Positions 2,182 through 62,704 of a stretch of DNA of 64,000 nt are shown one piece after another. The notes beneath the pieces are model-generated. The model was not told where the DNA came from and made no database searches. It saw only the letters and a list, made by a program, of their open reading frames with translations. Position numbers and translations under genes: made by a program. Numbering within the stretch: position 1 is the first letter of the stretch; each line of letters opens with the position of its first letter. Origin of the DNA: Clavulina sp. PMI_390 (lineage: Eukaryota; Basidiomycota; Agaricomycetes; Cantharellales; Hydnaceae); contig WIDE01000036.1 of assembly GCA_015039315.1 (NCBI GenBank), positions 1 to 64,000 on the forward strand, written 5' to 3'.

Positions 2182-3651
2182 ATGGCCAGCCCAAAAGGTG
2201 ACCTACAGCTTTCCTTACATCTAAACTTTCATAATTAGGCGCTGAAGATATCATCTATCCAGCTCTTGTTGGTGTAATTGGCGGCTCAGGTCTATACAAG
2301 CTTGAAAATCTGACCTTCGTGTATGTCATTATTCATCTACCACGTTTGCCGTTGCTATAATCCTTATCTTCCCTTGCTATGGGATTCAATACATCTCGGT
2401 ATAGTGAGGAGGTAAATCCTGAAACAGTGAGTTGGACCACATATAGCGTATCAATGACACCGCTCAGTTTTTTCGCGCATTCCGCACCAACCCCATACCC
2501 CACTATTGTTATCTTTACATGACTAGCCATGGGGATTTCCTAGCTCCCCCATCACTATTGCTTCCCTACCCACTGGCACCCATATCGCGTTTCTTGCGCG
2601 TCATGGAACAGCACACAGCATCAACCCCTCCGCCGTACCTGCGCGCGCTAACATTGCCGCCCTCTCTTCTCTCGGCGTAAAAGCTATTGTTGCATTCAGC
2701 GCTGTCGGGTCCCTGCGAGAAGAGATCGCCCCCGGCGATTTCATCATCCCATCGCAGATCATCGATCGTACCAAGGGCATTCGGCCCGCGTCGTTTTTCG
2801 AAGGCACGAGTGTCGTCGCCCATGCGATGTTTGGCGATCCGTTCGATGAGCAGCTGGTCGCCTCAATTACTCCGCTGGTGAAGGATGCGTTAGAAAAGGA
2901 GGGTAAGAAGGTGCATACAGCGAAGACCGCGGTTTGCATGGAAGGTCCTCAGTTCTCGACGAGGGCGGAGAGCCTCATGTATCGCCAATGGGGCGGCGAT
3001 ATTATCAACATGAGCGTTCTCCCTGAGGCTAAGCTGGCGCGCGAGGCTGAAATTAGGTGCGTCTCCGCCTGGCTTTTCGTGTCCATTTTTCTCTCTGTCT
3101 CGTCGCATCGCTCATTCATACCTCTCACTTCTGTTCGATTTCATTGTTCCACCTCTAATTCTCTTCTCTCGTCCATGCTCGATTACGCTCATACGATCTC
3201 TTCACCTCGGCCATGTTTTTTTTTTCCCTCGCCCAATCACCGTTTACTTCGCCTATGCTCGATCGGCCTCCTTCATCACGTCATCTCCCGGCCGAATGAT
3301 GTTCGCCGCGCCATCTTTCCACTCCTCCACTATACCAACCCTCGATCGGAATCCAAAATCTCCTCCAGCTACGCGCTCATCGCTACGTCCACCGATTACG
3401 ACGCCTGGCGCATCAACGAAGAGCCAGTGACCGTCGCCGAAGTTATCAAGACGCTCACGACGAACGCTGCATCTTCGCGCAACGTCGCCTCGGCGATTCT
3501 CGGCCATGTGCACGAGATCGTCAAGAAGGGTGACGTGCTGACGAATGCGGTGGGCGGTATGCAGTGGAGCATCGTTACCAGCAAGGACCACCAGAAGGAG
3601 GAGGATCGCCGCAAGCTTGCGTACATCCTTCCCAAGTACTTCGAGCAGTGA
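2182..3651 (+). CDS. MTAP: S-methyl-5'-thioadenosine phosphorylase
   Basis: The enzyme splits methylthioadenosine with phosphate into adenine and methylthioribose-1-phosphate in the methionine salvage pathway. My splice model uses exons 2182-2197, 2239-2320, 2405-2426, 2527-3056 and 3369-3651 and gives 310 aa in frame, close to the human enzyme's length. Visible family motifs are the phosphate-binding [10 protein letters not shown] near the N-terminus, [41 protein letters not shown], the substrate-site region [12 protein letters not shown], and ATSTDYDAW. The Ser-Thr-Asp-Tyr-Asp core at the C-terminal lobe is typical of the MTAP branch rather than of purine nucleoside phosphorylase. The first exon is only 16 nt, but its phase fits exactly. 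The fourth intron (3057-3368) is unusually long at 312 bp and stays open in frame, so naive ORF callers read through it. Family assignment is very secure; the start exon is inferred from splice phase. Confidence 0.93.
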
Positions 3652-5088: not shown

Positions 5089-8000
5089 ATGGCGTTTGCC
5101 TCGCGCTTTCGTGGTGGTGCTGGTGGCGCACAGCACTATCCTCAACCTCGTCCTCATCCCACTGCCATGTCTGTCCAAGGTAACAGCGAGTATTCGTTCG
5201 TCGGCGGGGAAAGCGACGATAGCTTCTCCGACATCACTTCCACTACTGGCTCCTCGATGAGCATGAGCATGCACTCGAGTGCTCATACGATCCAGCAGCC
5301 TCAAATGGCGGGCGTTGGCCTCGAACGTGTCCCTTCCAACCCAGCTGCTCTCGCTGCCGCTGCCAGTCGATTTGGCGACAGCAAGTCTCCTGTTTTAGAA
5401 GACCCATTCGCTGATCTCGCTGCTTCTGTGTCTCCTCCTCCTATGGCGGGTCCAAGCTCGAGCGCGTTCCCCCTTGACAAGAAACTTCCCCCAGGTGCAG
5501 TTCCTGCTGTGCCAGGTCTGACCAATCGAGGCCCGGGCTTCAGCCCCCTCGCTGCACGCTTCCATCGCAATATCCAGCCAAACGACGACGATGCGATGCG
5601 ACCCATGTCTCCCGCGACGATCACGACGCTCCCCGCGTACTCGTTCGTCTCTGACAGCTATGCACCGCCCACGCCAACGGCTGACAATCACGAGAACGGT
5701 GACGATGCGAGTCAAAGCGTGCCCAGTCTACCGAGCACCCCGAAAGCCAAGCAGGCCCCAGGCCTTCATGTCTCGAACCCAACTGCAGAAGCGTCGTCGT
5801 CATCGTCATCTCTACCCACTCCAACGAGTGCGATGCAGATGCCTGTCCCACTCCCTGCCATGTCGATGCAGCAACAAGCGGCGCCTAGTCCACAGCCTTC
5901 CCAATCCCCCGCGCATCGCGCGAGCCCACAGCCCCACATGCAGCAACACCAGCAACATCAACACCAACAGCGCCAGCATCACCTCCCCAACCGTGGTCTT
6001 CATGCAGCCTCCCCCTCGCTCTCCAGCGTCTCGTCAGGATCCACATCCCTGTCGACCGCCACGGGCAAGTCATCGAGGATGAGCGCCAACGGCGGTGGAC
6101 CAGGATCGACGACCGAGGATCTCGTGAGCACGCTCGGCCTCGGTGGCATGTTTGTCAGCTCGTTCGAAGGCACTAGCCAATATAGCAATGGCGGGCCATC
6201 GGCGTGTGGTCTCGCTGCGATGAATGCCGTAAGGCAGGTCTTGCTGTATCACAAGAAAGGTATTCAGTTCGGAAGACTGTTGGGTGCGATGCACCAAGTG
6301 CAGTTCCACGAGGTTCGTGCATTTTCCCTTATTTCTCTCGATCTTTTTTCATGTGCAAAGGCTTGATGCTGATACGATTTGGATGTTATTAGGAGGTCGT
6401 CAATATCTGCTCGTTCTTGACGGAAAATGATCACTTGGAGATCGACGAGCTGCACAAGCTACCCATGTTTACCCACACGATGGCGTTCATCGGAGCAGAG
6501 TATCAGAGTTGCTCTCAGAAAGCGTTCAACACGTTGCTCAAGTGAGTCATCATGTCTCCCGCTCGCACATTAATAGTTATCCTTATTAATATTTTCTAAC
6601 CACTTGTTCCACTTCATTATAACAAAAATAGACAACTTGCGCACCAGAGCACGAACGGCGCGCCGGTCGCAGCAGTCATCACCAAGTCTCCGGAAATCAT
6701 CGCCGTCATCCGTATCGCGCTTCCTCCACCTCCCCAATCTCCCTCTCCAGCTCCACCACTCCCGCACACTCACGCCTACATCATCTTCGACTCGCACTCG
6801 CGCCCGCAGGTACACCCGGACGGTTCGGCGTTCCTCTTCTTCCCCACGTCCGATCAAGCAGCGCAATACCTCACTCAGCTCCTCGCGGTGGACGAGGGCC
6901 TATTGCAGAGTGGCGATCTGAGGTGGCAGAGCGAGATGCTCACGGCGTTCTCCGCGCATTTGTTCACCGCGCCCGTAGAGCTGTCCCCGGCTGAACAGAT
7001 CAAGGCTGCTGCCAAAGGCGGCAATCCGAATGCTCTCAAGGCAGGCGGAGTGGGCTCGTCGGCGTGGGCAATGTTGTACGAAACGTCTGTGCAGCTCGTA
7101 CAGTCGCGCGGGAAAGCGATCAGGCTCGAGCACGATGTCGGAGAGAGTAAGCGCGAGAGAGATAATCTCGGCGCTAGCGTGGAAAGACTGAGGAAAGAGC
7201 TGAATGTGGAGAAGGAAAAGGTGCTGCAGTTGACGCGACGCGCGGAGATCGCTGAAAGGGGTGGTGCTGGTGCCGTCGCTGCTGCGCAGGCGGGCGCAAA
7301 CAAAGGAGGGATGGGAGCTAGATTCGCTGCTGGCTTTGGGGGTCGTGGTGGCCCCGCCGCTAACCCTACATCCCCTCCTCCCATCGTTCGCTCACCTGCT
7401 CCTGGTGCGAATATGAACAATAGCAAGATGAGCCAGGCTCAGTATGCACAGTTCTTTGGACAAGGCCCGAACGGTCCTGGTACGTCTGCTCTTAGCACCT
7501 AGTTGACTATTCCATTATTCTAACACTTAATCCTACAGATGCCGACACCTCGATTGGTTCTGTCTACGACGACGAGGATGACGTGCCTATCCACCTGAAC
7601 CGCAGCGTTCCACCATCATCTGTGGACAAGGGCAAGGGCAAGGCTCGCGCTGTCGACGAGTGGGCCGCGGGTGCTGACACTCCCTACGACGAGTTCTCTG
7701 AGCTCTCACCCGAGGACAGCGCCAGCTCGATCCCTGGCGCCTGGCATTCGTCTAACACGTCGTCTTCGCGAGGCACGATGCCGGGAGCGTTCAATGGCTC
7801 GCCTTACCGCGGTCCTCAACACCAGCCTCAACCCCAGCGCCATGCCGGCCCGATAGATCAGAATGTCTGGAACGATCGGCAGCCGCAAACGTATCAGAAC
7901 CAGCAGCCCCACCCATACGCGAACCCCAATCGCGGCCCCTCGCCAATGATGCCGGCTCCTCAGCACAACCAAATGCAGAACCAGCAAATGCCCATGTCGT

Positions 8001-10228
8001 CCTTCAGCGCCTCGCGTATCGGTATGGGCGGCATGAATGGCATGCGTGTCGATATGGGCCACCCGAACGGCGGTGCAATGGGGAATGTCAACTACAATGT
8101 TGGCGGCGGCGGAGGTGGTGGTGGTGGTATGGGTATGAGCGGCCGTAACTTCCAGCACGATGAAGACACCGAAGCGGGCTTCCTCGAGAGGCAAGAAGCT
8201 CAGGACCAGGAGAGCCGTGAAGTCGCGTTGCAAATGCAGCGCGAGGAGCAAGAGGCTTTGGATAATGCTCGTGCAGCAGCTGCTGCGCGACGCGGTGCCG
8301 GTCATCGCCCTCCAAACACATTCCGTGATGTCGGAGGCGAAGGCAGCGGAAGCCCCAGCGGCAGCGGCAGCGGTGGAGGTTTCTTCTCCCGATTCTTTGC
8401 TGGTGGCGGCAGCGGTAGCGCGCCAGCGCGCCCACCTCAGCCTCAACGCCAGGTTCAACAACAACCTCAGGCTGGCCCATCTGGCTCAGGCTCGAGAGGT
8501 CCCGTCACTCTCAACAATACGCCCCCTCGCGTCAGCATTGGGGGCAATGGCAGCGGCGCTGGTCCCTCCAGGACTGGCCCCGCGCAGAATCAGAACCAGC
8601 AGATGAACAGAGATCCGTCGACCGTACTGGGTAGCCCCGTCGCGGCCTCGAGCAATTCGTATCTCGAGAATCTTCGCCAGCAACTCCGCCAGGCCGAAGA
8701 GGAAGAGCGAGAGCGTAATCGTCCGCGCGGTGGAAGCGATGCTGGTGCGGGTGCGTGGGGCGGTGGTGCACGAGAGCGAGAGGCGAAAGCTCCAAGGCCC
8801 AAGAAGAGTGCGTTTGAAGAGGATGAAGATACTCAGAGGAGTCTGGATCTTGCGATGCGACTCCAACGGGAAGAAGAAGAGAACGCAACAGAGCAGGCCA
8901 TCTTGTTTTCTCGTACGTTAAACTGATCCTTCCTTTATTCACAATTCTCGTACCGTACTAGCCGCTAATGTTGTCTCTCGTGACGTTTCCTCTGTCTTCA
9001 TAGGCATGGCTGCTCTCAGTCCCCCAGAACGTGGTCTCAACATCCGCGATGCCCCGCCACACCCTGCTCAAGCGCGCATGGAGCCACTTCCCCGTGGTGG
9101 CATCCGTATCAATACGAATCGCACGCCGTCCCCTCCTCCAGCCAGAGGTGGCAAGGGCGCCGCGACTGAGGCAGACTCGCTCTTCGCTCTTCGCATGCAA
9201 TTAGAAGAAGAGCAGAAAGCCAAGTCACTTGCGCTTATCGCACAAATGGCCGAGGAGGAGCGCCTCAATCAGGAGCTCATCGCCTCGTTTGGGCAGCAAG
9301 AGACGTTCGAGTGTAGCGTGTGCATGGATGATAAGCTCATGGATGATGTCGCCCCCGTCCCTGGATGCGATCACAAGTTCTGCAGGGAGTGTCTGAGGGA
9401 GTATCTTGGGAGCCAACTGGAAAGCGGAAGCTTCCCGATCTTGTGCCCGAACTGCCAGGCGGAGCAAGCCGAGGATCCTGCTAGTAAGTTCTAATTCTTG
9501 GGCGACTTGATGGCAGGTGCGCTGATCGTGCTTCAACAGTTATTCCACCGATTCTCGCCGAGCATATTGGTCTGTCGGACAGGCAATATGAAGCTTGGAG
9601 CAAGCTTGACCTGCAGCAATATTCTATCGTTATCGACTGCCCTCAGTACGTTGGGTTATTTATATGCGTCTAACTGAACTTACCACTAACTTTCTTCCGT
9701 GCTTTAGCTGCCAGAACTCATCTCTCGTCGATAAAGACGATTACGCTGCAGAGCAGGTAGTCACTTGCCCGCTTGGCCCTTGCCGTGGAAGATGGTGCAA
9801 AGACTGCAACCAGAAGCTAGATCCCGGGATGGGTGTCCACTCCTGTGACGGAGAGAAGGAAATGGACGAGTGGATCCGCCAGTCCAAGAGCAAACGTTGC
9901 CCAGGTATGTCTTTTTTTTGAGTCATGGCGTTCGCTCTCTGCATTTCAGTGATGCCTGTGCTAACCTAAAAAAAATCAACGTAGAATGTGGTCAAGCAAC
10001 TCAGAAGACTTCGGGATGTAACCACATGACTTGTGGCACCCCAGGCTGCAATGGGTACGTCGTCCAACCCAAACAACTAGCCAGCATTCTCATTCACGTT
10101 TTTTTTTGTCCTTCAGGCACTTCTGCTACATTGATGGTCAATTAATCATCAAATCCAAGGTGGCGCCGGAAATCCGCGCTGCGCTGGAGCGTCACTACTC
10201 GGGTTGCAGGCTGTTCGACTATGACTAA
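5089..10228 (+). CDS. VTD-like deubiquitinase / UIM / RBR E3 ubiquitin ligase fusion (module copy A)
   Basis: Nine exons (5089-6312, 6393-6541, 6632-7479, 7539-8912, 9004-9483, 9540-9645, 9708-9904, 9985-10054, 10117-10228) splice in frame to 1519 aa. Residues 1-340 are Ser/Pro/Gln-rich and disordered. Residues about 345-560 form a cysteine-protease-like domain. It has Gln364 nine residues before Cys373 (GGPSACGLAAMN) and a DSH motif (Asp511, His513) followed by HPDGSAF. This Gln-Cys-DxH arrangement matches deubiquitinases related to herpesviral large tegument proteases. A coiled coil, a low-complexity region and UIM-like helices (SLDLAMRLQREEEE) follow. The C-terminus is an RBR ligase: RING1 CSVCMD through CDHKFCRECL to CPNC, an IBR (CPLGPCRGRWCKDC), and an Rcat with catalytic Cys1471 in SGCNHMTC. 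Removal of ubiquitin and thioester-mediated ligation are predicted, not shown. The junction intron (8913-9002) could instead separate two genes, because an ATG sits at 9006. Confidence 0.88.
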
Positions 10229-10409: not shown

Positions 10410-11432
10410 ATGGGTGTCATCGATGGCAGTGTGACTATTGGGATTTTGGGTTTGTCAATCTTCTGTATATTTCCTCGACTGCCACCTTCAATCTCATTTT
10501 CCGGCCTCTTGATGATTTTGTCTTGTCATCTGCGCCTACCCCTCGTCTCCACTCTCTAAGCCCTCCAGGGAGCCTTTGCGGAGCATGAAGCAATCATAAA
10601 GAAGCTTCGCCTCAAATGCCAGCCCTCAACCGACCCGCCGGCATCGTCTCCAAATGCAGCGGCAGTAATACCTCTGCTCGTTAAGACGCCGACAGACCTC
10701 GCATCGTGCGATGCCCTGATTATCCCTGGAGGAGAAAGCACCACCATCGCACTTCTGGCTAAACTTAATGGTCTTTTGGAACCTTTGAGAACGTTCTCGC
10801 AGCACAAGCCAATTTGGGGCACATGTGCAGGCGCGATCTTGCTCTCGAGCGGCGGAGTCGTTGGTGCAAAGAGAGGAGGGCAAGAAGTGATCGGTGGAGT
10901 TGACGTGAAGGTGGAACGGAACGGCTGGGGTCCCCAGGTGTGTTTTCATGAATCGTAGATCATTGCTCAGTGTGCTAATGTCCTTGCTCGGCTGGGGATT
11001 TGCACAACTGCAGCTCGAGTCCTTCGAGGCCGATCTCGACGTCGAAGTGCTAGAACAGCCCAAAAGACCGTTCAAGGGTGTTTTCATTCGGGCTCCGGTC
11101 AGCATCATCGTATCAACGTAGTAAATGGGTAGCATATAGCCCTAATCTTCCTTGGCTTCGCATAGGTCATTCTCGCTCTCACTCCCACTCACCAAACTCC
11201 GCCTCGGCCACCTATCCAGGTCGTCGCACGCTTATCCGATCATCATTCCCTAGACGAAGAATCGAGCACTGACGACGATGCACGGCGCATTGTTGCAGTC
11301 CGACAAGGCCACCATCTCCTAACAGCATTCCACCCTGAGCTGACAAAGGATTCGCGATTCCACGAGTATTTCGTTCGCGAATGTGTTATCCCCAGCGTTC
11401 AGGGCGACATTCTAGATCCGATGAATCGCTAA
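10410..11432 (+). CDS. pdx2: Pyridoxal 5'-phosphate synthase glutaminase subunit (PDX2/SNO family)
   Basis: This subunit releases ammonia from glutamine and hands it to the PDX1 synthase for vitamin B6 formation. Four exons (10410-10449, 10561-10937, 11014-11097, 11166-11432) give 255 aa in frame. Key motifs are [14 protein letters not shown] at the N-terminus, [11 protein letters not shown], the nucleophile Cys in [12 protein letters not shown], and the His-Glu pair in TAFHPELT. The first exon ends inside the ILALQG motif, and the spliced codon restores the family consensus exactly, which fixes the ATG at 10410. Only 181 bp separate it from the stop of the upstream ubiquitin gene, so its promoter must be very short or overlap that gene's 3' end. 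Its stop is 175 bp from the end of the convergent hydrolase gene. No PDX1 gene is in the window. Confidence 0.96.
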
Positions 11433-44335: not shown

Positions 44336-44519
44336 ATCCAGCTAGGTCCAGCTGGAGTCCAGTGGGGTCCAACTGAGTCCAACTGGAGTCCATTGAGGTC
44401 CATTGGAGTCCGGCGGCGTGTGTCAGGATCCACTGGACTCCATTGGACCACGTTGGACTCCACTGGATTCCACTGGATTCCACTGGATTCCAATGGACTC
44501 CAATGGACTCCAGCTGCAC
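44336..44519. repeat. Palindromic minisatellite array, left (TGGAGTCCA-type units)
   Basis: The array is made of degenerate units of about 10-15 bp around TGGACTCCA / TGGAGTCCA, for example TCCACTGGATTCCACTGGAT. Because the core is its own reverse complement, both strands look alike. A similar array lies at 45497-45604, and the two flank about 975 bp of AT-rich DNA. Confidence 0.85.
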
Positions 44520-45496
44520 CCGATGAAGTACAGTGACTAGCCAGTTGATTTATGCGAGTGCGATAGTATATTTATTGGCTCTGACTTGCTGTATATTACA
44601 AGCAAGTCGATATATTGTGTGTTTATAAATATTCGCATAAGCTGTAGAGGTATCCCCTTACTGTCCGCTCAAGGATTAATATAGTGGGACGCACGGAAAA
44701 TTGAGCACAACTCATTATTTACTTATTCCATCGACACCATGAAGTCTCCCCGCAACCAGCCGTCCTAGATCCCATTTCTCTATGATTAAGTACACCAGCT
44801 ATCCAGAAAGTTGAGCGCAGACCCGCAGGGATGACTTAATGACTATGCCGCCGTGCAGGTTAGACCTGCAGTATTTTCCAAAGCTCATAGTTCCCTAAAT
44901 TATTGGTTCTTGTCTGGTACAGGTTAAAATAAACAGAGGACATGCATGCTATGCCCAAAATGTGTCAGTCACAGGAGAATATGCTAGAATACTAGTCAGC
45001 TTAATGGGATAAGTATGAAGCGGAGGACCTGAAATATTATAAATTCGATGTATTAATAGTTCTACATACAGATCAGCTTCTATACTCCTATCGAATCATA
45101 CTGAATTAATCTGATACATTTGAGAGCCACACGCTAGAGGCATACGATTGAAAGGGAATGAAACTAGACTATCATCATCTAGCTACGTTCTCTGTAGCTT
45201 GTTTTCCGCCGATATCACTATCAGAGTAGGCCGAAAACAAAAACTGATATATTTGTGTCTCGATTGAGTCTGGGAACGGCATATTTTTCTTGACAGTAGC
45301 TCAGTGGCAGACTGGACAGAATATGCTGGATGGTGAGTACGATCGAATATCATCCCTTATCAGTATACATATTTTCTTTTTCTTTTTTCATACGAAATAG
45401 ATTTCGCAATGCTAGTTCCTTATGTACAACTTGCGGAAGGTATATATTCCTGCTTTTTCCGCACAACATCCTGATCTCTCTTTGGAAGTGTTGTGC
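44520..45496. other. AT-rich DNA between two palindromic arrays
   Basis: About 975 bp without a supported gene. The surrounding arrays and the inverted similarity of their outer flanks suggest a non-autonomous element, but no transposase or clear target duplication was found. Confidence 0.45.
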
Positions 45497-45604
45497 TGGA
45501 CTCCAGTGGAGTCCAGTGGAATCCAGGTGCTGCTTCGAGTCCAATGGAGTCCGGTGGAGTCCATCGGGGGCCGTTGGCATCCACCGGACTCCATTGGACT
45601 CCGG
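45497..45604. repeat. Palindromic minisatellite array, right (TGGAGTCCA-type units)
   Basis: Units such as GGAGTCCAGTGGAATCCAGG and ACCGGACTCCATTGGACTCC match the array at 44336-44519. It ends only about 200 bp upstream of the start codon of the next gene and so probably lies in or near its promoter. Confidence 0.85.
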
Positions 45605-45806: not shown

Positions 45807-48705
45807 ATGTCGACCGTCGACCAGGCCGCTTCGACCTCTGTTCCATTATTCGATGATCTCGTTAGGTGTCTTGGAGCCGGAAAGCCTTTCGTCAGTTCCT
45901 TTGAAGGCACGAGCAAGTATAACGATGCGCCTCCATTCGCATGTGGCCTCGCGGCCATGAACGCTATACGCCAAATATTCATGGACTATGCCCATGGAAC
46001 TCGCGATGATGCGCTGCTTCGGGTGATACATACATCTAATTTCCACGAAGTCAGTCAATGCCTGACCTGTTTCCGATCCTCGATTGTAACCCTAACACCC
46101 CTCCACCAATAGGAAGTGGTCAACATTGCCTCGTTTCTCAAGGGCAGCGATCATCTGGAGATTAATGACCTGCACAAACTCCCAATGTTTGCGCATACAA
46201 TGCGTCTATTGAGGGAGGAGTACTCAACATGCTCCTTGGAGTCCTTCAAATCTATCCTTTCGTGAGTCTGGTCGTGATGAGCGTGCACTCGTCTATCTAC
46301 TTTCGACTTTTGTCTTGCTTGTCTGTCCATCTGACATGTGTGTTCGTCATAGGCGCCTCGCCCACGACAGTACAACGGGGTCACCCGCTGGGATGCTCAT
46401 CAGCAAGGAGGCCAGCGTCATCTCTGTCACCCAAATATCACTCATTACTTTGTCTCCCGGTCACTCCACCGAACGCCTTACCACTGCACCTTTCGCTCAC
46501 ACGCACGTATACGCTGTATTTGACCTGCACTCGCGCCAGACCTCCCAAGATTATGGACCTGCCTTCACCCTCTTTTCAACGCCCGAACAAGCGGCGGTCC
46601 ACCTGGCTGATGTACTCGAGGTGGATCACGCACTAGTCGACCCAGGCGGCCTGCAAAACACTAAGTTCTCCGCGCATATCTTCGCTCCTCAAAGCAGCGA
46701 GAGTAGCGGGAGCGGACGAACGATGTTGAGCGCTGCGTGGGCAAAGGTGTGGGCCATGCTCTACGAGACGACTGTGGAGCTGGCTCAGACGCGTGCGGTA
46801 GCGACGAGGGTAACAAGAGCGGAGGGAGAGGCCGCGAACGCAAGGCGCGAGCGAGACGATGCAATGGCGGCTGTTGAGCGGCTACGTAAAGAGCTTCGCG
46901 ATGAGAGAGCTCGTAATGCAGCTGTGAATTCGACGCCAAATCGAGATGGGCACCAGAATGCGGAAGGGAGGGGAGGTGCAAGTGCGGCCAAAACAACACA
47001 GTCTACGGCTTCCTCGCGCCAACAAGGGGATTTGATCCAGCAGGAACCCGAATCTACACCGAATGGCATAGTAAAAACATCGACGCCAGCTCCAACCACC
47101 GCTAGTCCAAGTACAAGTCATGCGCAATCGGCTCGGCCTCAAACTAGTATGTATCTCCTTAGCTTCAGCTTGAGCCTACATAGAACCTCCGAGTTCATAA
47201 CGCATTCTTCACTCCAATTGAATAGCTGTTTATGATGAAGAAGATGAAGCAGCAATCTATCGCGCTGCTTTTGATGTGCAAGACCCGAGTGGTACCACGC
47301 CTCCAACCTCTAGTCGAAACAAAGGTAAAGGCAAAGCACGAGCGGGCGGAGATGGGAGATGGAATATGGCCAGTGCTTCAAATGCAGTTGATGAAGACGG
47401 CATAGAGGTGCAGAAGGGGGTGATTGCCTCACTCGAGTCGAGTTACCAGCAACCCAACGAAACAAAGCAGCGTCAGAAATCCAACATGGGCCCCGGATCC
47501 ACTTCCAGTATGAATAACGGCTCGGGCACCACTTCATTGCCTCCATTGTTCAGTAATCTCTCAGATGGGAACCGCTTTGTGGTAGCGGAACTCGAAGTGA
47601 GTCGGAATCGCTATAAACCACTTGTGTCACCATCACTGAACTTGTGCTCTCCCAAGGCGGATGACAAGAGATCGCAGGAGCTAGCGTTGAGGCTGCAGCA
47701 AGAAGAAGAAGAGCTTGTTGAGCGCGAGCGACGTGCAGCAATGCGGAAGCCATCGTTAGTCCTGGTACCGGGTGTAAATGGTTCGCTGAGAATGCAGAGC
47801 CGAAGGACTACCTCGTTCGAGCCACATAGTCAAGAACATGAGGAGAACTCCATTCTCAAGCCATTCAATTCTGCCGCCAATATCGCCTCTGGCTCGGGTG
47901 CGAGGCTATCTCCCCCGGCAGGCGCGCAGGTGACTGCTATAGGAAGCAATTTTTCGGTCAACCGAGCTCAAACCAATTTGACAGGTATATATTCTGTATT
48001 CCTCCGTTGAGATTGACTCATTCAGTCGTCTTGGAACCTTATGACCAGACCAGAACCCTCATCGGGAGGGTATCCACGCGACGCAGCCTGTGTATAGTAA
48101 CCCGCCCTCGGGTCGTGCTGGCGCGTCGCTGAGAGGAGGAAGAGGTGGTGGAATGACGATTCCTGCTCTGGCCACGTTCACTGGGGCGATTTCAGGTGCC
48201 TCACGCGCAGTCGAAAGTGTGGCAGACGCTGGTAGTGATAGGGATGGGGTGGCTGTTGGCGGTGGGCGTGGTCGTGGTCGCGGGGCTCGTGGGCGTGGAG
48301 GTATTACTCGCGGGGGTGCCAGTCCCAGCGGGGTAGTTCATGGTGGCTTCCGTGGTAGCGCTGCCCGTGGTAGTGCTGGTCGCGGGACGGTCCGTGGTGC
48401 TGGACGCGGCGGAACCGGTCGAGGTAGAGGCGCGAATGGTGGTGGTGGTGGTAATGATGGTGCAGGTGGAGGTGGAGGTCGTACGATGCAAGAAATGGAG
48501 GCAAGCGATCTAGCGTACGCCACCATGCTTCAGGAGCAGGAGAATGCGCGCGCAGCACGCGGCATGGCTGGACAATTCTGTGAGTTGTCTTTTGTAAAGA
48601 CCTGAACGTTTATTGCCTTGAACGCCGAAGTTGTAACTGATCAACTAATGTGGCGAAAATATCTATTTAGGGAGGAACTCAGTCCACGAAGGCCAGCACC
48701 GCTGA
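45807..48705 (+). CDS. VTD-like deubiquitinase with UIM-like motifs and RGG box (module copy B)
   Basis: Six exons (45807-46049, 46113-46261, 46353-47146, 47226-47984, 48049-48579, 48671-48705) give 836 aa in frame. The long N-terminal tail of copy A is missing; the enzyme domain starts almost at once. Cys46 is present (PPFACGLAAMNAIRQ), as are Asp188 and His190 (FDLHSR). The oxyanion-type Gln nine residues before the Cys is Lys37. A coiled coil follows (ANARRERDDAMAAVERLRKEL), then the UIM-like segments EVQKGVIASLESS, SQELALRLQQEEEEL and DLAYATMLQEQENARA. Exon 5 encodes an RGG box (GGRGRGRGARGRGGITRGG), a typical RNA-binding or arginine-methylation region. There is no RBR domain. The protein may still cleave ubiquitin but with weakened geometry; this is inference. 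Confidence 0.85.
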
Positions 48706-48999: not shown

Positions 49000-49245
49000 A
49001 TGTCTATTAGCAAAAACAGTTCTTCCAGTACCCTACAATCATTTGATGATCTTTTCAGGTCCCTAAGGGCAGGGAAACCCTTCATTAGCCGGTCCGAAGG
49101 TATAAGCCAGTATGAAAGTAACACTCCATCTGCAGCTGTGAGAACCATTCACGTAAGCAACCTTCTGAGTCTGAATTCAACATATATTTGGCTCTCATAT
49201 GTGGTCTGGATTTACCGCGCGCTTGATGCCTTGCAAGGGTGAGCG
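49000..49245 (+). pseudogene. Truncated fragment of the deubiquitinase module (copy B')
   Basis: The frame from 49000 reads SFDDLFRSLRAGKPFISRSE then GISQYESNTPSA, clearly the start of the module. It then jumps to VRTIHVSN, which in the full copies lies about 30 residues later. The stretch holding the catalytic Cys and the following helix is deleted. After 49160 the sequence turns into the duplicated upstream segment shared with copy B. This is a dead remnant left by unequal exchange. Gln is retained at the oxyanion position of the stub. Confidence 0.75.
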
Positions 49246-49403: not shown

Positions 49404-51762
49404 ATGTCTGCTCTGAACGAGGGCAATTTCGCCTCTGTGCGATTGGCAAAAGCTCTCGTTAGATCTTTTAGAGCTGGCAAGCTATTCATCAGCTCGCCCG
49501 ATAACACGGATAAGAATCACAATACTGCTGCATCCACGCACGGCCTTGCGGCGATGAATTTCATGCGCCAACTCTTCGTGGACTTTTCTCATGGAAGCTC
49601 CAGTGATGTACTGCAAGCATTGATAGACGCGTCTCCATCCTGCAAAGTCAGTCAATGCCTTGATTATTTCTGTTACTCAATGGTACTGCCCTGACCCACG
49701 ACACCTAGGATGCAGTCAACACTGCCTTGTTCTCTACGTCTCCTAACAATCCTGGAATTCACAAAATTCACAAGCTCCCTATCTTTGCGCACACCATGCA
49801 CCTTCTGAGGGAGGAACATTTAACGTGCTCATTGGAGTCCTATGAATATGTCGTTACGTGAGTTGGCTCATCAATCTACGCACTCACTTGTTAAGCCCTC
49901 TTTCTCGTCTTATTTTTATATCCCAAACATGCATTCTGCACTCAGACTTCTCGCCAATGAAAATCCAGATGACTCCCCTGTTGGAGTAGTCATCACGACC
50001 AACCGCAATACCATCGCCCTCGCTCAAGTACCACTCAGTCCTCATGCTCCTTCTGTCCGATCTACTGTTATTGAGCAGAACGACAGTCCATTCTCCCACA
50101 CGCAAGTCTACACCGTATTTGACATGCATTCTCGCGAGTCCCGCCCGAATGGACCGACGCTTGTGCTCTTTCATACGCCTAGAGAAGCGGCGCAATATCT
50201 CGATGAAATACTTGAGGTGGGTGAGGCACCAGACAAATCAGGGGACTTGGGCAGCAACAGTTTCTCCGCGTACATCTTCACTCCCCATAGTCGTGAAAGC
50301 GGCGGAAGTGAACAAGCAATGCTACTTGAAGCATGGAAAAAGGTTTGGGAAATGCTCTACGAGACAACTGTGGAGCTGGCGTGGGCACGTGAAGTGGCGG
50401 CTAGGGTGGCGACAGTAGAGCAAGAGGCTGCGAACGCGAGGCGTGAGCGAGATGACGCCGTTGCAACTATCAAACAACTCCAGAGGGAGCTCCACAATGA
50501 AAGAGCTCAGAAAGCAGGTGAGGACCCGATTCAAGGTCCTCCCGGGAACAACAATCCAGATCGGGAGGCAGCTGAGACTGGAAGCGGAGTGCGAGACGAT
50601 TCTGTTACGATGCAGTCGGCACGTGGTCGGGATAATTTGATCCAACATGATGCTGGATCTGCGTCTACTTCAGATCATCAAGGGAGAGTGGGATCAGCGT
50701 CAAGAACTGTGCAGCTGCAGATAACTGCCAAGCAGTATGCACGATTCTTTGGGGCAGGCTCAACTCGCAATGGTATGTGTCTCTTTGACTTCGCCTAAAC
50801 ATAGCCGTTCTGAAGTTATTTTGCCCTCACAATAGCTCTATACAGCGAGGAAGAGGGAACAGCGGCGTTTGACCCCGAAGGTTCAGTTTCAACAGGAACG
50901 CTGCATTCGAGCTCAAGCAGAAGCAATAGCAAAGGAGAAGGACAAGCGGAATTGGGTACCATTGTCAATAATGGCTCGAAAATCCAGAATGACCTGATTT
51001 CCTCGCTTGAGCAAAGCCCTCCGCAAGCTTTCAGGCGAGCACGGCACCCTGAGGCCAACGATCTTAACTCCAAAACCAGGGACATAACAACCAATTCCAT
51101 CTGCAGTGTCGCTTCGGGCTCCACAATGGCCTCGACTCCACCATTGACTGCGCAAATCACCAAAGCGCAGCGGGCAGATAGGTGGCAAGGGGAAATAAAT
51201 CGACCCACTTCGCATAGTACGTTTGGTTTTCTTAGACCTTCAGATCCAGAGATAAATGTCAATATCGACAGACAATCAGCCGCATGAGCGAGGCAATCGC
51301 GCAACAACCTACCCGCAGCAGCATGGATCTTCCATGATAAAGCATGCTGCCACAGCGCTAACAGGAAGACCAGGCGGATTGACCCTACCAGCCTTGAGCA
51401 CGTTGGAAGGCCCCATCTCAGGTATTGCGGATGTGATTGGGGACGAAAAGCGCACTAACGGCGGCGGCATGAACACAAGCGGCGAGAGCATCCGTGGTGG
51501 TGCTTTTCGTGACCGTAGCTCCAGTATTCGCAGTGGTTTCAATCGTGGTAGTAGCGCCCGGAGCAGGAGTATTCGGGGTGGTTTTCGTGGTGGTATTGCT
51601 CGGGGTGCTGCTATTCGCGGCGGGTTTCGGCGTGGAGGTATTGGCCGTGGTGGTTGGGGAGGTGGTGATGGTGATGATAGTCACACAGTGGAAGAAAATT
51701 TGGCGACGGATTTGGAATACGCTACCATGCTTCAAGAGAAGAAGAACGCGCATAATGTATGA
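49404..51762 (+). CDS. Pseudo-deubiquitinase, VTD-like with RGG box (module copy C)
   Basis: Five exons (49404-49646, 49709-49857, 49946-50772, 50836-51216, 51272-51762) give 696 aa in frame. The catalytic Cys position holds His46 (ASTHGLAAMNFMRQL) and the Gln position Lys37. The DxH is intact as DMH (Asp190, His192), followed by ESRPNG. The coiled coil (ANARRERDDAVATIKQLQREL) and one UIM-like helix near the end (DLEYATMLQEKKNA) remain, and the last exon encodes an RGG-type region (RGGFRGGIARGAAIRGG) like copy B. The short final exon found in copies B, D and E was not found. With no nucleophile it cannot hydrolyse ubiquitin by the usual chemistry. The intact 2.1-kb frame argues for selection as a ubiquitin-binding or regulatory protein, or for very recent decay. 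Confidence 0.82.
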
Positions 51763-52347: not shown

Positions 52348-53952
52348 ATGAGTACCCGATCAACTGCCAGCACCGCTGCTAGCTCTTTGGCCGATATCCC
52401 TCCCGAAAAGCTCAAATGTACTACAGAACTTGAAGACTCCTACGTTGTTCTCTTCAAAGATAATGTCAGCCCAGCCGACAAGAAGCAGCACATCACTGAA
52501 ATAGCCAATAAATCTGCGGTGTATAAAACCCCAAAATCTGGAGGCAAGACCTACGCCGGTGTTGAGCGGGTATTCCATGGCGGGCATGGTTACATGGGAA
52601 TCTTCCATAAAGATGTCGTGGATGCGATCCAAACGGATATCAAAGTAGTAAGTTATTTAGCGCCTTCGGGGGACTTCCACTTCTTAGCAGACTTCATACC
52701 ACTCAACTTATTCCATTAACAGGTGAAAAAAATTCAGAAGAATGAGGAGTCCGAGTCCTTTCTCGATTACACTCCCCTGACGACGAAAAATTGGGGTCTC
52801 TCTATGATCTCGTTGTCTCCCGACAAGTTCCAGGCCCAGTTCAACCCGCAATCTCGGCTTCAGACGTTCACTGATGTGGGATACAACTGCATCGCTAACC
52901 AGGGCGAGGGTGTCAACATCTTTGTTCTTGATAATGGATTCAAGGACGATGATTTCAAGGTGTGTCGGCGTTTTTCCTGTAAGATGATACGAGCCTATTC
53001 ACCAACGGTATCTCATGGTAGAAAGTTGCCAACCGTGCTGCTTTAGACCTGGGTAACAATGGCGACTGGAGCTCTCATGGAACTGTAGTGAGCAGTTATG
53101 CAGCAGGTGATTCCTTTGGTGCCGCGCCGAAGGCAAACCTTATATTCTTCAACGACGACCGGACACTGAACGGCAAATTGTACGCTCTCGATGAGATCAC
53201 TTGGCGAATTTCGGAGGGACACACTGGATACAACAAGCCAGCTGTTATCAATTGCTCTTGGGGGATGAAGAGTACGGATGCAGGAGACATAGTCAACGCT
53301 GAACTCAACAAGTTAATTCAGGTATATGATGTAGTTGTTGTTGCGGCTGCAGGGAACTATGGGGTCAGTGGCAATCGACCTTGGTATTCATCTGGCTTTG
53401 GGGCTCGCGCTGACAGCTGTTCTATACAGGGCATTTTGGGCTTGACGCATGGCGGGCCAGCTGGGACGAACAACCGAGTTATTGCGGTTGGAGCTGTTGA
53501 CATTGACGGTAAAGTCTGGGAAAACTCTGAGCACGGATCTCGTGAGCAAACACGTTTATTCGTCTTGACACGGCGTTGACATGTGATGAACTGTCAGATG
53601 TCGACATATACGCTCCTGGGGTGAACATGCCAGTCAAGATGGCAAACGGCAGTTACACAAAGGTAGACGGAACTTCCATCGGTGAGTAGACTTGATTCGA
53701 CGCTCGTGATGTCTCTTGAGACGTGGAATACCACTAACCTGTTTCATGAAAGCGGCACCAATTGTCACTGGTGTGGTTGCATGTATTCTCTCAGACCACG
53801 AAGCGAAGATCAGAAATCTTACAGAGGCCAATCGGCTCCATCCGTCGGAAGTCCGAGATAGACTACAGCAATGGGCTCGAGTCTCGCAGTACAACGACCC
53901 AGAGGGCTTGGAGAAAGTGAAGATCCTCTGTAACTACGATTCTGCGCATTGA
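52348..53952 (+). CDS. Subtilisin-like serine protease (S8 family)
   Basis: This is a spliced peptidase gene with all S8 residues. The Asp is in NIFVLDNGFKDD, the His in WSSHGTVVSSYAAG, the oxyanion Asn in VVVVAAAGNYG, and the Ser in VDGTSIAAPIVTGV. The GTS codons end one exon and the AAP codons open the next, with the split Ala codon restored. An N-terminal I9-like inhibitor segment precedes the catalytic part (EDSYVVLFKDNVSPADKKQHI), as in proteinase-K-type enzymes, which remove this prodomain by self-cleavage. From the ATG at 52348 there is no obvious signal peptide (STRSTASTAASSLADIPPEK), so it may act inside the cell or have an unseen upstream exon. It interrupts the ubiquitin-module array and shares no sequence with it. 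The stop is at 53950-53952. Confidence 0.92.
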
Positions 53953-55733: not shown

Positions 55734-57927
55734 ATGTCTACTGTCAGCCATGCCGCTTCGACTTCCGCACCATCTTTTGATGATCTTGTCAGGTCTCTCG
55801 GATCCGGCCAACCCTTTGTTAGCTCGTTCAACGGTACAAGCGATTACAACAAGGATACTCCATCTGCGTATGGGCTTGCTGCCATGAATTCTATTCGTCA
55901 AATATTCATGGACTATTCTCACGAAACTCGCGAGGATGCATTGCTGCGAGTGATACATACATATACCTTCCATGAAGTCAGTTAATCGTTTGTCTAGCGC
56001 CTCCAATTCTGACGCTCGTGATAGGAGGTAGCCAACATCGCATCGTTTCTCAAGTCTCAGGATCAAATCGAGATCAACGATATCCACAAACTTCCCATAT
56101 TTGCGCACGCAATGAAACTCTTGAGAGAGGAGTATTCAACATGCTCCCTGGACTCATTCAAATCTATACTCGCGTGAGTCCACCACCCACCCGCGTACAC
56201 ACATGAGCACCTACTTACGCTTATCATCCTTCCGTGATGATACGACTCTGGATCTCATTCAGTCGTCTTGCGCAAGAAAGCGCTCAGGGGTCACCGGTCG
56301 GAGCAGTCATCACAAGGTCTGCCGATGTAGTAGCTATCACCCGCATCCCCCTTGCTCCTCCGCCCGCCGATCACTCTCTCCGTGACGAGCAGTGTGATCA
56401 AACATTTGTCCCGCACACACACGCCTACGCCTTGTTCGATTTGCACTCACGTGAGCCCCACCACCCGAATGGATCCGCGTTCATCTTGTTCCCCACACCC
56501 GAGCAGGCAGCGGAGTATCTCTCAGACTTGCTGAAAGTCGATGAGACGCTGAATCAATCACACGACTCGCGCCAAACGAGGTTCTCCGCACACATCTTCA
56601 CACCCCGTAGCGATGAGACTGGACACACAACAGCAAGCTCCGTGTGGGCAGCGGTGTGGGCTATGCTGTATGAGACAAGCGTGGAGCTTGTTGAGGTGAA
56701 GCGCGAGCGGGATGAGTTGGTCAGGAATGCTGAGAGGCTCCGCGGAGAATTGCGCGACGAGAAGGCGAGGGGGTCTACAAGGGACGGAACCCGCGACAGT
56801 GAGGCTCTCGATAGTGCAAGAGAGGGCGGAGCCGAGACGAGGACCTCCTCGGCGGCAGCAGGAGTTAATAGGGAGATTAGAGATGACCAGCAGCCACAGT
56901 TCTCAAGGAAAGACCAGACCAGCTCCAGTTAGTCATTCTTTGAGATCATTGTCTAATTCTAGCGCACTGATCGCCCTGGGTTATTTCCTCGTCTACGCAC
57001 TACACGGCCTTGACAGCCTTGCACGATGACACTGCGATTTTTCCTGCTACAGGTGACACAGAAGAGCTTATTTCTGGACAATCCGCAGAGTCACTCTCAG
57101 CAGAGACGCGTCGATTGCAGAAACGAGAAGCGGAGGATAGAAGATCCCATAGGCTAGCAGTACGGCTACAACGCGAAGAAGAGCAGCAGATGGAACGCGC
57201 GCGCCGCCTGGCATGGCAACATGCAAATATGAACATCGAGCCTGCACAGCGTGCTCCCGCTGCAAGGGACGGTGGCCAATCGGGAGGGGGATTCATGATT
57301 CCGGGGTGGGACACTGGGCATCGTGCGATGCGACGACAGGATGTGCCCACTCTGCGTACGGATGATGCTCCTGCTGCAAGAGAAGGCGGCTTTCTGGGAG
57401 GAGGGAATACGAGTCCGCGTTGGAACACTGTCTCGGGTGCCACGAGCATACTAGGGAGTGTTATAGGCCTTGGCGGCGGTAGCGCAAAGAAGTCCGGAGA
57501 AGGCAGTGGCAGTGGTGGGGCAAGTGGGAATGGGGGTGTGGGGAGAGGGATTCGTGAGGTTCCCAGCTTGAACGCTAGTGCAAGGCCCTATTATTTGCCC
57601 AACAATTACCCCCCGGATGCAGATTGGGGACGGAGGGGCATCAGGCGGGAGGGAGACGCAACGTATCGAGCGGCCGAGGGCAATCTTCTCGGGGGACAGG
57701 GAGGAGGTCGTCGTTCGGCGCGAGAGGATGAGGCGGCTAGCTTGGCGTATGCTTTGATGCTTCAGGAACAAGAAAACGAGCGCATGATGCGGGAAGCGAT
57801 AGAGCAAAGCCGTGAGTTCTCCGCCCTCCTTGGAATTGAAGTTTGTTTCTATGAACGATTCCATCATTCGAACTGATTCGGAAATGTCCGATTAGGGAGG
57901 GACGCAGACCCGAATGGACGACGCTAG
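55734..57927 (+). CDS. Pseudo-deubiquitinase, VTD-like (module copy D)
   Basis: Five exons (55734-55976, 56025-56173, 56263-56927, 57017-57811, 57896-57927) give 627 aa in frame. The catalytic position is Tyr46 (TPSAYGLAAMNSIRQ), one base away from the Cys codon, and the Gln position is Asp37. DLH (Asp190, His192) and the following EPHHPNGSAF are intact. A short coiled coil (VKRERDELVRNAERLRGEL) is kept. UIM-like helices SHRLAVRLQREEEQQ and ASLAYALMLQEQENERMMRE follow, separated by a Gly/Ser-rich region (SGEGSGSGGASGNGG) like copy E. The short last exon (RRDADPNGRR) matches the terminal exons of copies B and E. The enzyme is predicted inactive, while ubiquitin-binding parts persist. Its middle linker is the shortest of the family. 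Confidence 0.86.
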
Positions 57928-58855: not shown

Positions 58856-61800
58856 ATGCCCGCCGTTGACCAGGGCGCGCTCACATCCCTCGCCATGGGT
58901 GGCGGCAGTACGCTCCCTGAATCGCAGCTCGTCCCAATCGCAATGGGCCCTCCGCCGTCCCATGGAGGCATCATCCCTGCCCGCGTCTCTTCAGAAATGA
59001 TGGACATATCCGATCCTGAGCCTTATACGCATCAGCAGCAGCAGCAACATCATCATCAAGACACTGTACCAAGACCATTGGCGCTCGAGTATACTACGCC
59101 AGCATCCTCGGGGGCCATCGTTCCTGGCGTTCCTCCTCCGCGTCAGGGCAGCATGCATAGCGAGTACGACGACCAACACCAACACCAGTATTCACAGCAC
59201 CACCACCACAGCAATGTCAACACCGATCGAGACCTCCCTGACGTTCCCTACCACCCTCGTCCTACCTACACCCCGATACATCATACTGCTCACCATCAGC
59301 AGGATAATAACCAACAGCAGCTCCAGCTAGTTGCCTCTACTTCCTCTGCCGGTGTTCCCACTGGGCCAACGTTCGAAGACCTCGTTCGAGTGCTCGGAGT
59401 TGGCGAGCCGTTCGTCAGTTCGTTCTCTGGCACGAGCCAGTACAGCAATGGTGGCCCATCCGCATGTGGTCTCGCATCCATGAATTCCGTTCGCCAAATC
59501 TTCATGTACCACTCAAAGGGTATTCGTGATGGTGCACTGCTGCGCGTCATGCATGCCTATTCGTTCCATGAAGTCAGTCATCGCCTCTCCTATTTCCCTT
59601 GCCCAGCACACTTTCCTTGTACTGACTGCGTATCGTTTATGGTCATGTAGGAAGTCATCAACATCGCCTCATTCCTCAAAGATACAGACCACCTCGAGAT
59701 CAACGACCTTCATAAACTACCCATGTTTGGCCACACGATGAACCTCTTGGCAGAAGAATATTCAACATGTTCCTTTGAATCTTTCAAAACCATTCTCACG
59801 TGAGTCTCAGTTATTCACCACCCTCGCATTCCATATCCTTGGCGTCTATTATCCTGTACTTGACAACCTTATCCTATCCACCAATTACTTACCCTCGACA
59901 CACAGCCGACTCGCCGAAGAAAGCACACATGGCTCGCCCGTCGGAGCTGTCATCACAAAGTCCCCAGAAATCATCGCCGTCACGCGCATCCCTCTTCCTC
60001 CTCCCCAGCCCACACAACACCCCGATGACGTCCCTCTCCCACACACGCACGTCTACGCCGTCTTCGACTCGCATGCGCGCCCCGAACACCATCCGAACGG
60101 GTCCGCCTACATCCTCTTCCCCACAGCAGACCAAGCCGCGCGATACCTCGCCGACTTACTCAAAGTCGACGAGACGCTCTTGAATTCAGGCGACCTGCAA
60201 TGGCAGACCGAGCTCCTCACCGCGTTCTCCGCACACATCTTCACGCCCCAACATATGAACAGCGAGACGGGGACGACGCCGATGGTGAGTTCGGCGTGGG
60301 CGATGCTGTACGAGACGAGTGTGGAGCTTGTGCAGGCGCGTGGGAAAGCGAGTAGGGCCGAGACGGAGGCGAGCGATGCGAAGCGCGAGAGGGATAACCT
60401 TGCTGCGAGTGTCGAGCGGCTGAGGGGCGAGTTGCGCGAGGAGAAGGAGAGAGCGAATAGGGCGATTGCGAATGCGAATGCTGCGAGAAATATGAATGGG
60501 AATGGGAATATGAATGGGCATGCGAGTGGGAGTGGGAGTGGAGGTGGTGGGGGTGGTGCGAGGGCGGGGTCGTCGATGACGAGGCAGTCGCAGCGCGAGA
60601 TCGAGTACTTGGCCTCGTATGGTAGGGATGCTGGAGGATCGGGATCGGGATCGGGATCTGGCTCGAAAACGACCGAGCAGATGACTGCTGAACAGTATGC
60701 GAGGTTCTGGGGGCCAGATACAACTCGTACCAGTACGTCTTACCACCCTTTGAGAACTTCGTTTATGTCTAACTCGCCGCCACGACACTTTTGATAGCCG
60801 TTTACGACGACGAAGATGATGCAGCGATCTATCGCGCTGCGTTTGACGTGCAAGACCCTGTTTCTCGAGCCCCTGTCATTCCTCCTCGTCCCCCTCTATC
60901 TGCATCGAATGGAGCCAACAATAGCGGCGGTGTTGGTGGGGGCTGGAACGTCGGTAGTCCAGGGAACGACGACGACTCGGAGGTCCAGAAGGGCGTCATC
61001 GCCTCGCTCGAGTCGAGTAATCAGCAATATATCGAGGCGTCGCGCCGCCTTAATAACGCTGCTAATTCGAGCACTACGGGTTTTCCTTCCAACGCCGCTG
61101 GTCCATCTTCCTCTCCGTCAAAGTCCAATGCGCTCTTCAATTCGAACAAGGGGAACAATGCGGGCGTCACTGTTGGACAAGGAAGCGCGAGGTCGTATGC
61201 GAGCGCAGCCGTCTCGAAGCTCACCAAGAGCCATTCCAAACCATCTTCTTCATCATCTCCCAACAACAATAATAACAATAACGCCGGACCGTCCCGCCCA
61301 AGTGCATCGAGTGCGACTGTTGCTGGATCCAATGCTGTTGTCGTCCGAAACTCTAAACCATCTGGTTCCAAACCTTCTGTTTCAGGCTCAGGTGGGAAAG
61401 GAACAGGAGTTGCTGGTGGTAGTGGCGCTGTGCCTCCGTCCATGATGATGGGCCTCGATGCCGATGAGCACCTCCAGGACCAGCCCTCTTTCCCACCGCT
61501 TACTGCCCCAGATTCTCCCACCGCCGGGCTAACTTCAGCTGAAGCGCGTCTTCTGCAGAAGCAGGAAGCAGAAGATAGAAAATCTCGCGAGCTTGCGATG
61601 AAGTTACATCGTCAAGAGGAACAGCTCGCCGAGCGTGAGCGACGCCAAGCGACGCGACGAGCAAATATGAATACTGAGTATGCTTACGATGACCCAGCTG
61701 TGAGGGACGATGGCTCCTTCGGAGGAGCGGGGATTGCGATTCCAGGTTGGAACACCGTGTCTAGTGCGGTGTCTGGCGCTGCAGGTATGGTTAGCAATGT

Positions 61801-62281
61801 CATTGGTATTGGTGGTGGCGGCAGCAGCACGAGGAAGTCTGGTGAGGGCAGCGGCAGTGGTAGTGGTGGAGCAAGTGGAAGTGGTAGTGCGGGTGGGAGT
61901 GGAAGTGGAAGTGGAGGAGGGAATCGCTACTCTGTGCTGGCCGACTCTCACCAGAATTCAGATGGGACATGGACGCATACCAGGCGGGAGGGAAACAGAA
62001 CAATTGTCACAACATACAAGATGGTTGAGAACCATCCGTTTGCAAGTGGAGGTCGTAGGGCGCAGGAGGACGAGGCAGCTAGCCTGGCGTATGCCACTAT
62101 GCTTCAGGAACAGGAGAACGAGCGAATGATGCGCGAGGCATTGGAGAAAAGCCGTGAGTTGTTAATCTTTGGAATAGGGATCCTCGTCCTATGAATGATC
62201 TTTCCTGTCCTGGATCGAACTGACTGCGTTGATATTTCTTTCGTAGGGAGGGACTCAAATCGGGTCAACCAATACCAATAA
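58856..62281 (+). CDS. VTD-like deubiquitinase with UIM-like motifs, intact active site (module copy E)
   Basis: Five exons (58856-59572, 59651-59799, 59906-60732, 60798-62153, 62247-62281) give 1027 aa in frame. After about 165 disordered, Gln/His-rich residues the enzyme domain has Gln195, Cys204 (GGPSACGLASMN) and DSH (Asp343, His345) followed by HHPNGSAY, the same full signature as copy A. A coiled coil (AKRERDNLAASVERLRGEL) leads to EVQKGVIASLESSNQQ. Ser/Asn-rich linkers follow, then SRELAMKLHRQEEQLAERER, a long Gly-Ser tract, and the UIM-like ASLAYATMLQEQENERMMRE. The last exon encodes RRDSNRVNQYQ and a TAA. Unlike copy A it does not run into the RBR; that lies in a separate gene 424 bp downstream. 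Ubiquitin cleavage is predicted from the retained catalytic residues. Confidence 0.9.
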
Positions 62282-62704
62282 CGCATTTTGGACAATTTTG
62301 TTTTGTTTTGGGGTTGTCGTAGCGTTCAACGCTACTACGTGAAGGGGCTCATACTTCTCACCTCCTATTCTTGCATTTGCTCTCGGTATCTATTCCCACC
62401 GAACCATGTACATGTACTTGTATCTGCATTTGTACTGACCATGGTATCACACTCAAAGGATGTCCTGTATATAATCATGTTATCGTCTCAAGGCCTGGCT
62501 CCATCACCGACGATCTGAGAAGGGTGATTTTGGCAATCTCTCTGAATCAAATCCGAGGACGGCGGCATCGCCCTTACGGTTCTGTGGAGCGCCGCGCTTA
62601 CGATCACCCTCTCACAGCAACTTCTCATCGCAGTGAGCCACCAACTCCGAGTCCTAGCTGGACTCCACGGTTGTCCTACAATCGCGATCGTATATTCCGT
62701 GAAT
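62282..62704. other. Spacer between copy E and the RBR gene
   Basis: 423 bp. It must act as both the terminator of copy E and the promoter of the RBR gene if they are separate. An open frame upstream of the RBR ATG (from about 62633) starts at a non-ATG codon and is not convincing as coding. Confidence 0.45.

Follow-up and report, generated by a model that had tools for sequence, protein, structure and literature searches.

Does a single gene of Clavulina sp. PMI_390 encode both an enzyme that removes ubiquitin and an enzyme that attaches it? The question is raised by positions 5089-10228 of the 64-kb stretch of DNA analysed here (the window, which is the start of contig WIDE01000036.1), where a putative cysteine-protease domain and a putative RING1-IBR-RING2 (RBR) ubiquitin ligase share one reading frame after splicing. 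We consider it very likely, judging by the sequence, that the VTD-RBR fusion known from Agaricomycetes has its Clavulina orthologue in this gene, and that the gene yields one spliced protein with a papain-fold VTD deubiquitinase at the N-terminus and a RING1-IBR-RING2 ligase at the C-terminus, both as predicted. This reading is based on: i) the open gene structure; ii) homology; iii) the conserved active sites; iv) the predicted folds of an orthologue and of the Clavulina RBR itself. Moreover, the fused gene was probably duplicated in tandem in Clavulina, with copies split into VTD-only and RBR-only genes, several of which then lost catalytic residues.

The single open frame, rebuilt from the window DNA, joins nine forward-strand exons into 1519 amino acids plus a stop (1520 codons) with no internal stop, and all eight introns are GT..AG. 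Exon 1 (5089-6312) encodes a low-complexity N-terminus and then the first part of the VTD with Gln364 and Cys373, and is followed by a phase-0 intron, as it is in the models of four paralogues (A-D, described below). Exon 2 (6393-6541; 149 bp) encodes the VTD core, and exon 3 (6632-7479) the end of the VTD, with Asp511-x-His513, and then a helical region. Exon 4 (7539-8912) encodes a low-complexity linker and ends with Phe-Ser and the first base of an Arg codon (C|GC). The VTD and RBR halves are joined by intron 4 (8913-9003; phase 1), which contains a TGA at 8924-8926. Exon 5 (9004-9483) encodes a pre-RING helix (ALRMQ) and then RING1, while exons 6-9 (9540-9645, 9708-9904, 9985-10054 and 10117-10228; 106, 197, 70 and 112 bp) encode the post-RING1 part, the IBR and RING2 with Cys1471. 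Thus the structure proposed by a first-pass annotation of this DNA was reproduced: nine exons in one frame running through intron 8913-9003, an Arg codon split at 8912/9004, and Gln364, Cys373, Asp511, His513 and Cys1471 each at the position given there.

That annotation was also right in assigning the N-terminal half to cysteine proteases of the herpesviral tegument type, i.e., to the VTD domain. The protein carries the Cys and Asp-x-His of the family at Cys373, Asp511 and His513, and Gln364, which we take to be the oxyanion residue. Among 47 near-complete VTD alignment rows (which include P0001, the deposited half of the same gene, and close Rhizoctonia relatives), the catalytic Cys was found in 46, and the Asp and the His each in all 47. 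Pfam at E<=10 returned nothing for residues 340-560, and NCBIfam gave no match above its cut-off. The papain-like fold common to M48, DrT1-VTD2 and Wc-VTD1 is present in the predicted model of an orthologue, where a helix starts with the Cys and a strand ends with the Asp of Asp-x-His. The first-pass annotation had staked the protease reading on Cys373 and His513 lying near each other; as far as an orthologue's model can speak for the Clavulina protein, its predicted VTD fold is consistent with that. In the model of P0012, a helix (219-229) precedes the last VTD strand, and residues 24-238 align to 283-493 of 8adc (compared as ranges only). In the published VTDs, the subgroup specific for lysine-6-linked (K6) chains is marked by a C-terminal helix, alpha9 (PMC9741609, available in part).

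The C-terminal half was correctly described as a complete RBR with catalytic Cys1471, as judged by Pfam, PDB sequence search and alignment. Pfam RING and IBR stretches were found at 1301-1350 and 1450-1488, just below the single-family cut-offs, and human ARIH1 was matched in the PDB sequence search at E 7.6e-9. Furthermore, Cys1471 in GCNHM aligns with the GCNHM of ARIH1, and in a 27-row alignment the Cys/His columns of the RING1-IBR-RING2 zinc ligands were invariant or nearly so. The structure model of P0008, the deposited form of this RBR, had a predicted local distance difference test (pLDDT) score of 93.4. In a 34-row RBR tree, which is poorly resolved elsewhere, the fungal VTD-linked RBRs parted from P0002, P0004 and P0073, the three other RBRs in it, with support of 100/100. 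Because the RBR was matched by both Pfam and the PDB sequence search, and because the same domain pair occurs in 49 database proteins, a predicted VTD followed by a predicted RBR at 5089-10228 is confirmed as a real arrangement and not a chance one. The claimed UIM-like helices, on the other hand, were not recovered: Pfam at E<=10 found no UIM in the fused protein (HMMER filters drop weak short matches), and a loose UIM-like pattern had no match there, though the helices that end the C and D models matched it, as did a single place in B.

The two families had been recognized in the first-pass annotation, but their combination was thought not to be an established system. This was mistaken, as Erven et al. 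2022 (PMC9741609) describe the VTD-RBR fusion, which is present in most Agaricomycetes, the class to which Clavulina (Cantharellales) belongs. In that paper, fungal VTD members were reached by hidden Markov model searches that included bacterial VTDs, and the VTDs of Serendipita indica (Si-VTD, PIIN_06337) and Serpula lacrymans (Sl-VTD, LOC18815922) cut only K6-linked chains. A K6-specific bacterial VTD from Simkania was reported later (PMC10643670, available in part), and a review mentions the VTD family once in the part available (PMC10919355). A literature search, with subscription papers mostly outside its reach, found no further paper on the fungal fusion. Thus the fusion itself was in print in 2022, and what is new, as far as the available part of PMC9741609 goes, is the tandem split family. 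The orthologues share with the Clavulina protein the two domains, the class, the Cys and Asp-x-His and the order of VTD before RBR, whereas the Clavulina protein, at 1519 aa, has roughly twice their length (655-771 aa in P0011, P0012, P0014 and P0032). Moreover, PMC9741609 describes one such protein for most genomes, while one Clavulina contig holds five VTD genes and a separate RBR.

Other known systems differ in chain preference, carrier or domains. Wc-VTD1 of Waddlia chondrophila (PDB 8ADB/8ADC) is bacterial and K6-specific, with 17-18% identity over the aligned part, and the available part of PMC9741609 mentions no RBR for it. Herpesviral M48 (2J7Q) and helitron DrT1-VTD2 (8ADD) are active on Ub-AMC, and their preference is for K48, K63 and K11 chains (PMC9741609); unlike the fungal gene, M48 is carried by viruses and DrT1-VTD2 by transposons. 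ARIH1, HOIP, RNF216 and parkin have the RING1-IBR-RING2 and catalytic Cys seen in the Clavulina RBR, yet to our knowledge none of them has a VTD domain. A20/TNFAIP3 also puts a deubiquitinase and a ligase on one chain, by means of an OTU protease and zinc fingers, domains unrelated to VTD and RBR.

How widely has the fused gene spread in its own genome? When the Clavulina genome (39.4 Mb, 301 contigs) was searched for VTD, all matches (at least 14 at E<=1) fell within the window. Besides the fused gene, these loci comprise four VTD-only genes, A-D, and are accompanied by an RBR-only gene, E, all on the forward strand and all modelled by hand from GT..AG sites and homology. Paralogue A (45807-48705; seven exons, 816 aa) keeps the Cys and Asp-x-His and has Lys for the Gln; imperfect repeats of type GGAGTCCAGTGGA were seen by eye on its 5' side (44340-45600). 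A VTD relic at 49030-49179 on the same strand covers an N-terminal stretch only (tblastn, 42-59% identity). Paralogues B (49404-51762; five exons, 696 aa) and C (55734-57927; five exons, 627 aa) have His and Tyr, respectively, at the nucleophile position, while D (58856-62281; five exons, 1027 aa) has its Gln, Cys and Asp-x-His intact. Gene E (62705-63775; five exons, 265 aa) has GSPHM for GCNHM, i.e., Ser in place of the Cys that defines a catalytic RBR; its deposited model (P0010, 273 aa) has the same Ser.

Each of the five VTD genes has a 149-bp exon 2, and the fused gene and E agree in the lengths of their four terminal RBR exons (106, 197, 70 and 112 bp). In A, C and D a phase-1 intron at the equivalent place precedes a short final exon (the codon split in A encodes Trp), and B stops before that intron. 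A tree was built from 32 selected VTD rows, and in it the window's five VTDs formed one clade (100/98) with the fused gene outermost, D next, and then C with A and B. Thus the expansion is lineage-specific relative to the genera included; the tree left out the metagenome fragments P0065, P0067-P0070 and P0072, whose identity reached 63%. We discount, by argument only, the idea that a virus or helitron recently brought in the VTD, since the Clavulina VTDs sit within the fungal fused-protein VTD tree, a tree containing no viral or helitron VTD.

Does 5089-10228 make one protein or two? In the database the locus is split. The VTD half is deposited as P0001 (hypothetical protein DL93DRAFT_1178477, Clavulina sp. 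PMI_390; 1202 aa, 100% match), which ends with Thr-Leu-Asn after the Arg, at the in-intron TGA 8924-8926, while the RBR half is deposited separately as P0008 (DL93DRAFT_2125877, 240 aa), starting within exon 5. As gene models rather than transcripts, the two point in the direction that the first-pass annotation had said would count against its joined frame. Two adjacent genes, as in these models, would have a precedent in the same genome, where VTD-only D is followed in the same order by RBR-only E with 423 bases between them (62282-62704). We nevertheless regard two genes as highly improbable: i) only 79 bases separate the TGA from the ATG at 9006; ii) 49 of the 73 retrieved proteins carry both domains on a single chain, although these are mostly gene models too; iii) in the C and D models, a phase-1 intron at the equivalent place has a Ser-Arg C|G donor context like that of the fused gene, albeit with hand-chosen splice sites, and this supports the donor at 8912/8913; iv) the start of P0008 inside exon 5 omits the ALRMQ pre-RING helix, whereas 25 of 49 fused proteins, the Clavulina one among them, match a loose pattern for this helix in the 70 residues preceding the RING; v) the deposited model of D (P0071) is itself shortened to 246 aa, which suggests that deposited models of the family are unreliable at these loci.

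Another arrangement would have both products made, the fusion by splicing of intron 4 and a VTD-only protein by its retention. Retention would add three residues after the Arg and then a stop, which is exactly P0001, and the A, C and D models encode VTD-only proteins ending shortly past the equivalent intron. However, this scenario draws on gene models, in which retained introns are often errors; we hold it to be unlikely.

Several points weigh against the single fused orthologue that we favour. The deposited gene models, which are not transcripts, do split the locus, and here the two domains come onto one polypeptide by conceptual splicing of genomic DNA. Orthologues carrying both domains are likewise gene models, and the remaining retrieved proteins comprise eight VTD-only and 16 RBR-only sequences, many of which are fragments or distant RBRs. 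Neither phmmer with the single sequence nor a 16-row fungal VTD profile found a solved VTD among PDB sequences at E<=10, which is why the fold comparison was used, and the full-length fold model is that of an orthologue rather than of the Clavulina protein. As to the homologue searches themselves, those with the 1519-aa protein, the VTD region and the RBR region returned the protein's own deposited half and six RBR proteins without VTD; many orthologues were shorter than the length window of these searches, and joined domain pieces were aligned and used instead.

If the fusion is made as one chain, how might it work? In RBR chemistry, ubiquitin is passed via a thioester on the catalytic Cys. 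The RBR would load ubiquitin on Cys1471 and extend chains, either on itself or on a substrate; the VTD, tethered to it, would trim K6 linkages from these chains or from the ligase. The resulting mix of chains would contain few K6 linkages, and the enzyme would limit its own modification. We advance this scheme tentatively, as somewhat less than evenly likely, by analogy with that chemistry and with the two fungal VTDs published as K6-specific. In fused proteins with filled columns both active sites are conserved together, an argument that one chain needs both activities; that catalytic residues are missing only in unfused copies fits such a need, but these copies come from a single genome, and D and A keep the Cys and Asp-x-His though unfused. 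In a narrower version the VTD would edit nothing on substrates and only strip K6 ubiquitin from the ligase itself, keeping the ligase stable. Its tethering in cis and the joint retention of both active sites suit this version too, and the present data do not separate self-protection from substrate editing; we think the narrower version rather improbable.

The altered copies raise the further question of whether they still serve a purpose. Of the VTD positions, 38 are conserved in at least 90% of the 46 database rows compared. The fused gene departed at 3 of these, D at 4, A and C at 13 each and B at 18, against a median of 0 and a maximum of 18 (P0063) in database rows, with gaps counting as departures in window rows only. 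At 58 RBR positions (51 rows) the fused gene had 6 departures and E 11, with a database median of 1 and a maximum of 12. That B, C and E are decaying pseudogenes without function has a chance only a little short of even: the branch of E is long (1.52 versus 0.078 for the fused-gene RBR in the RBR tree), that of B is 1.1, B departs at nearly half of the conserved positions, and the VTD relic adjoins the altered copies. Yet all three models have open frames and GT..AG introns, and pairwise NG86 estimates gave dN < dS (nonsynonymous below synonymous divergence) in nine of ten VTD pairs (the tenth was without dS) and in the RBR pair, although with dS mostly >1 and each pair averaging both lineages the ratios are rough and the Cys losses undated. 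YN00 gave values for three of 11 pairs.

A more doubtful outcome is that the fused enzyme was duplicated and split into VTD-only pseudo-deubiquitinases (B and C) and an RBR-only pseudo-ligase (E), which would be kept as proteins that bind ubiquitin chains, E2 or the parent enzyme and thereby regulate the parent. If so, only copies released from the fusion would tolerate catalytic loss. One genome holds an intact fused gene beside split relatives, of which two of the four VTD-only genes lack the deubiquitinase nucleophile and E lacks the ligase Cys, a natural experiment. Comparing fused with split and live with dead forms makes approachable the purpose of K6-specific VTDs, a question that PMC9741609 leaves open.

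Elsewhere in the window, Rfam (gathering threshold) and ARAGORN gave no match over the 64 kb. Upstream of the fused gene, a frame at 2527-3651 resembles a methylthioadenosine or purine phosphorylase, and frames just 3' of the fused gene (10560-11432) resemble a PdxT/SNO-type glutaminase. Between paralogues B and C, 52349-53952 holds a gene resembling a subtilisin-type protease (GTSIAAP motif).

Other genomes also list several family proteins. P0009 of Ceratobasidium sp. 392 (1190 aa) contains a VTD, an RBR, a second VTD and then a RING-like start, and may be two tandem copies run together; the database lists this isolate with a further VTD-RBR protein, P0048. Two family proteins each were found for Tulasnella sp. 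UAMH 9824 (P0043 and P0053) and Sistotremastrum niveocremeum HHB9708 (P0054 and P0056). More than one copy per genome may thus not be limited to Clavulina.

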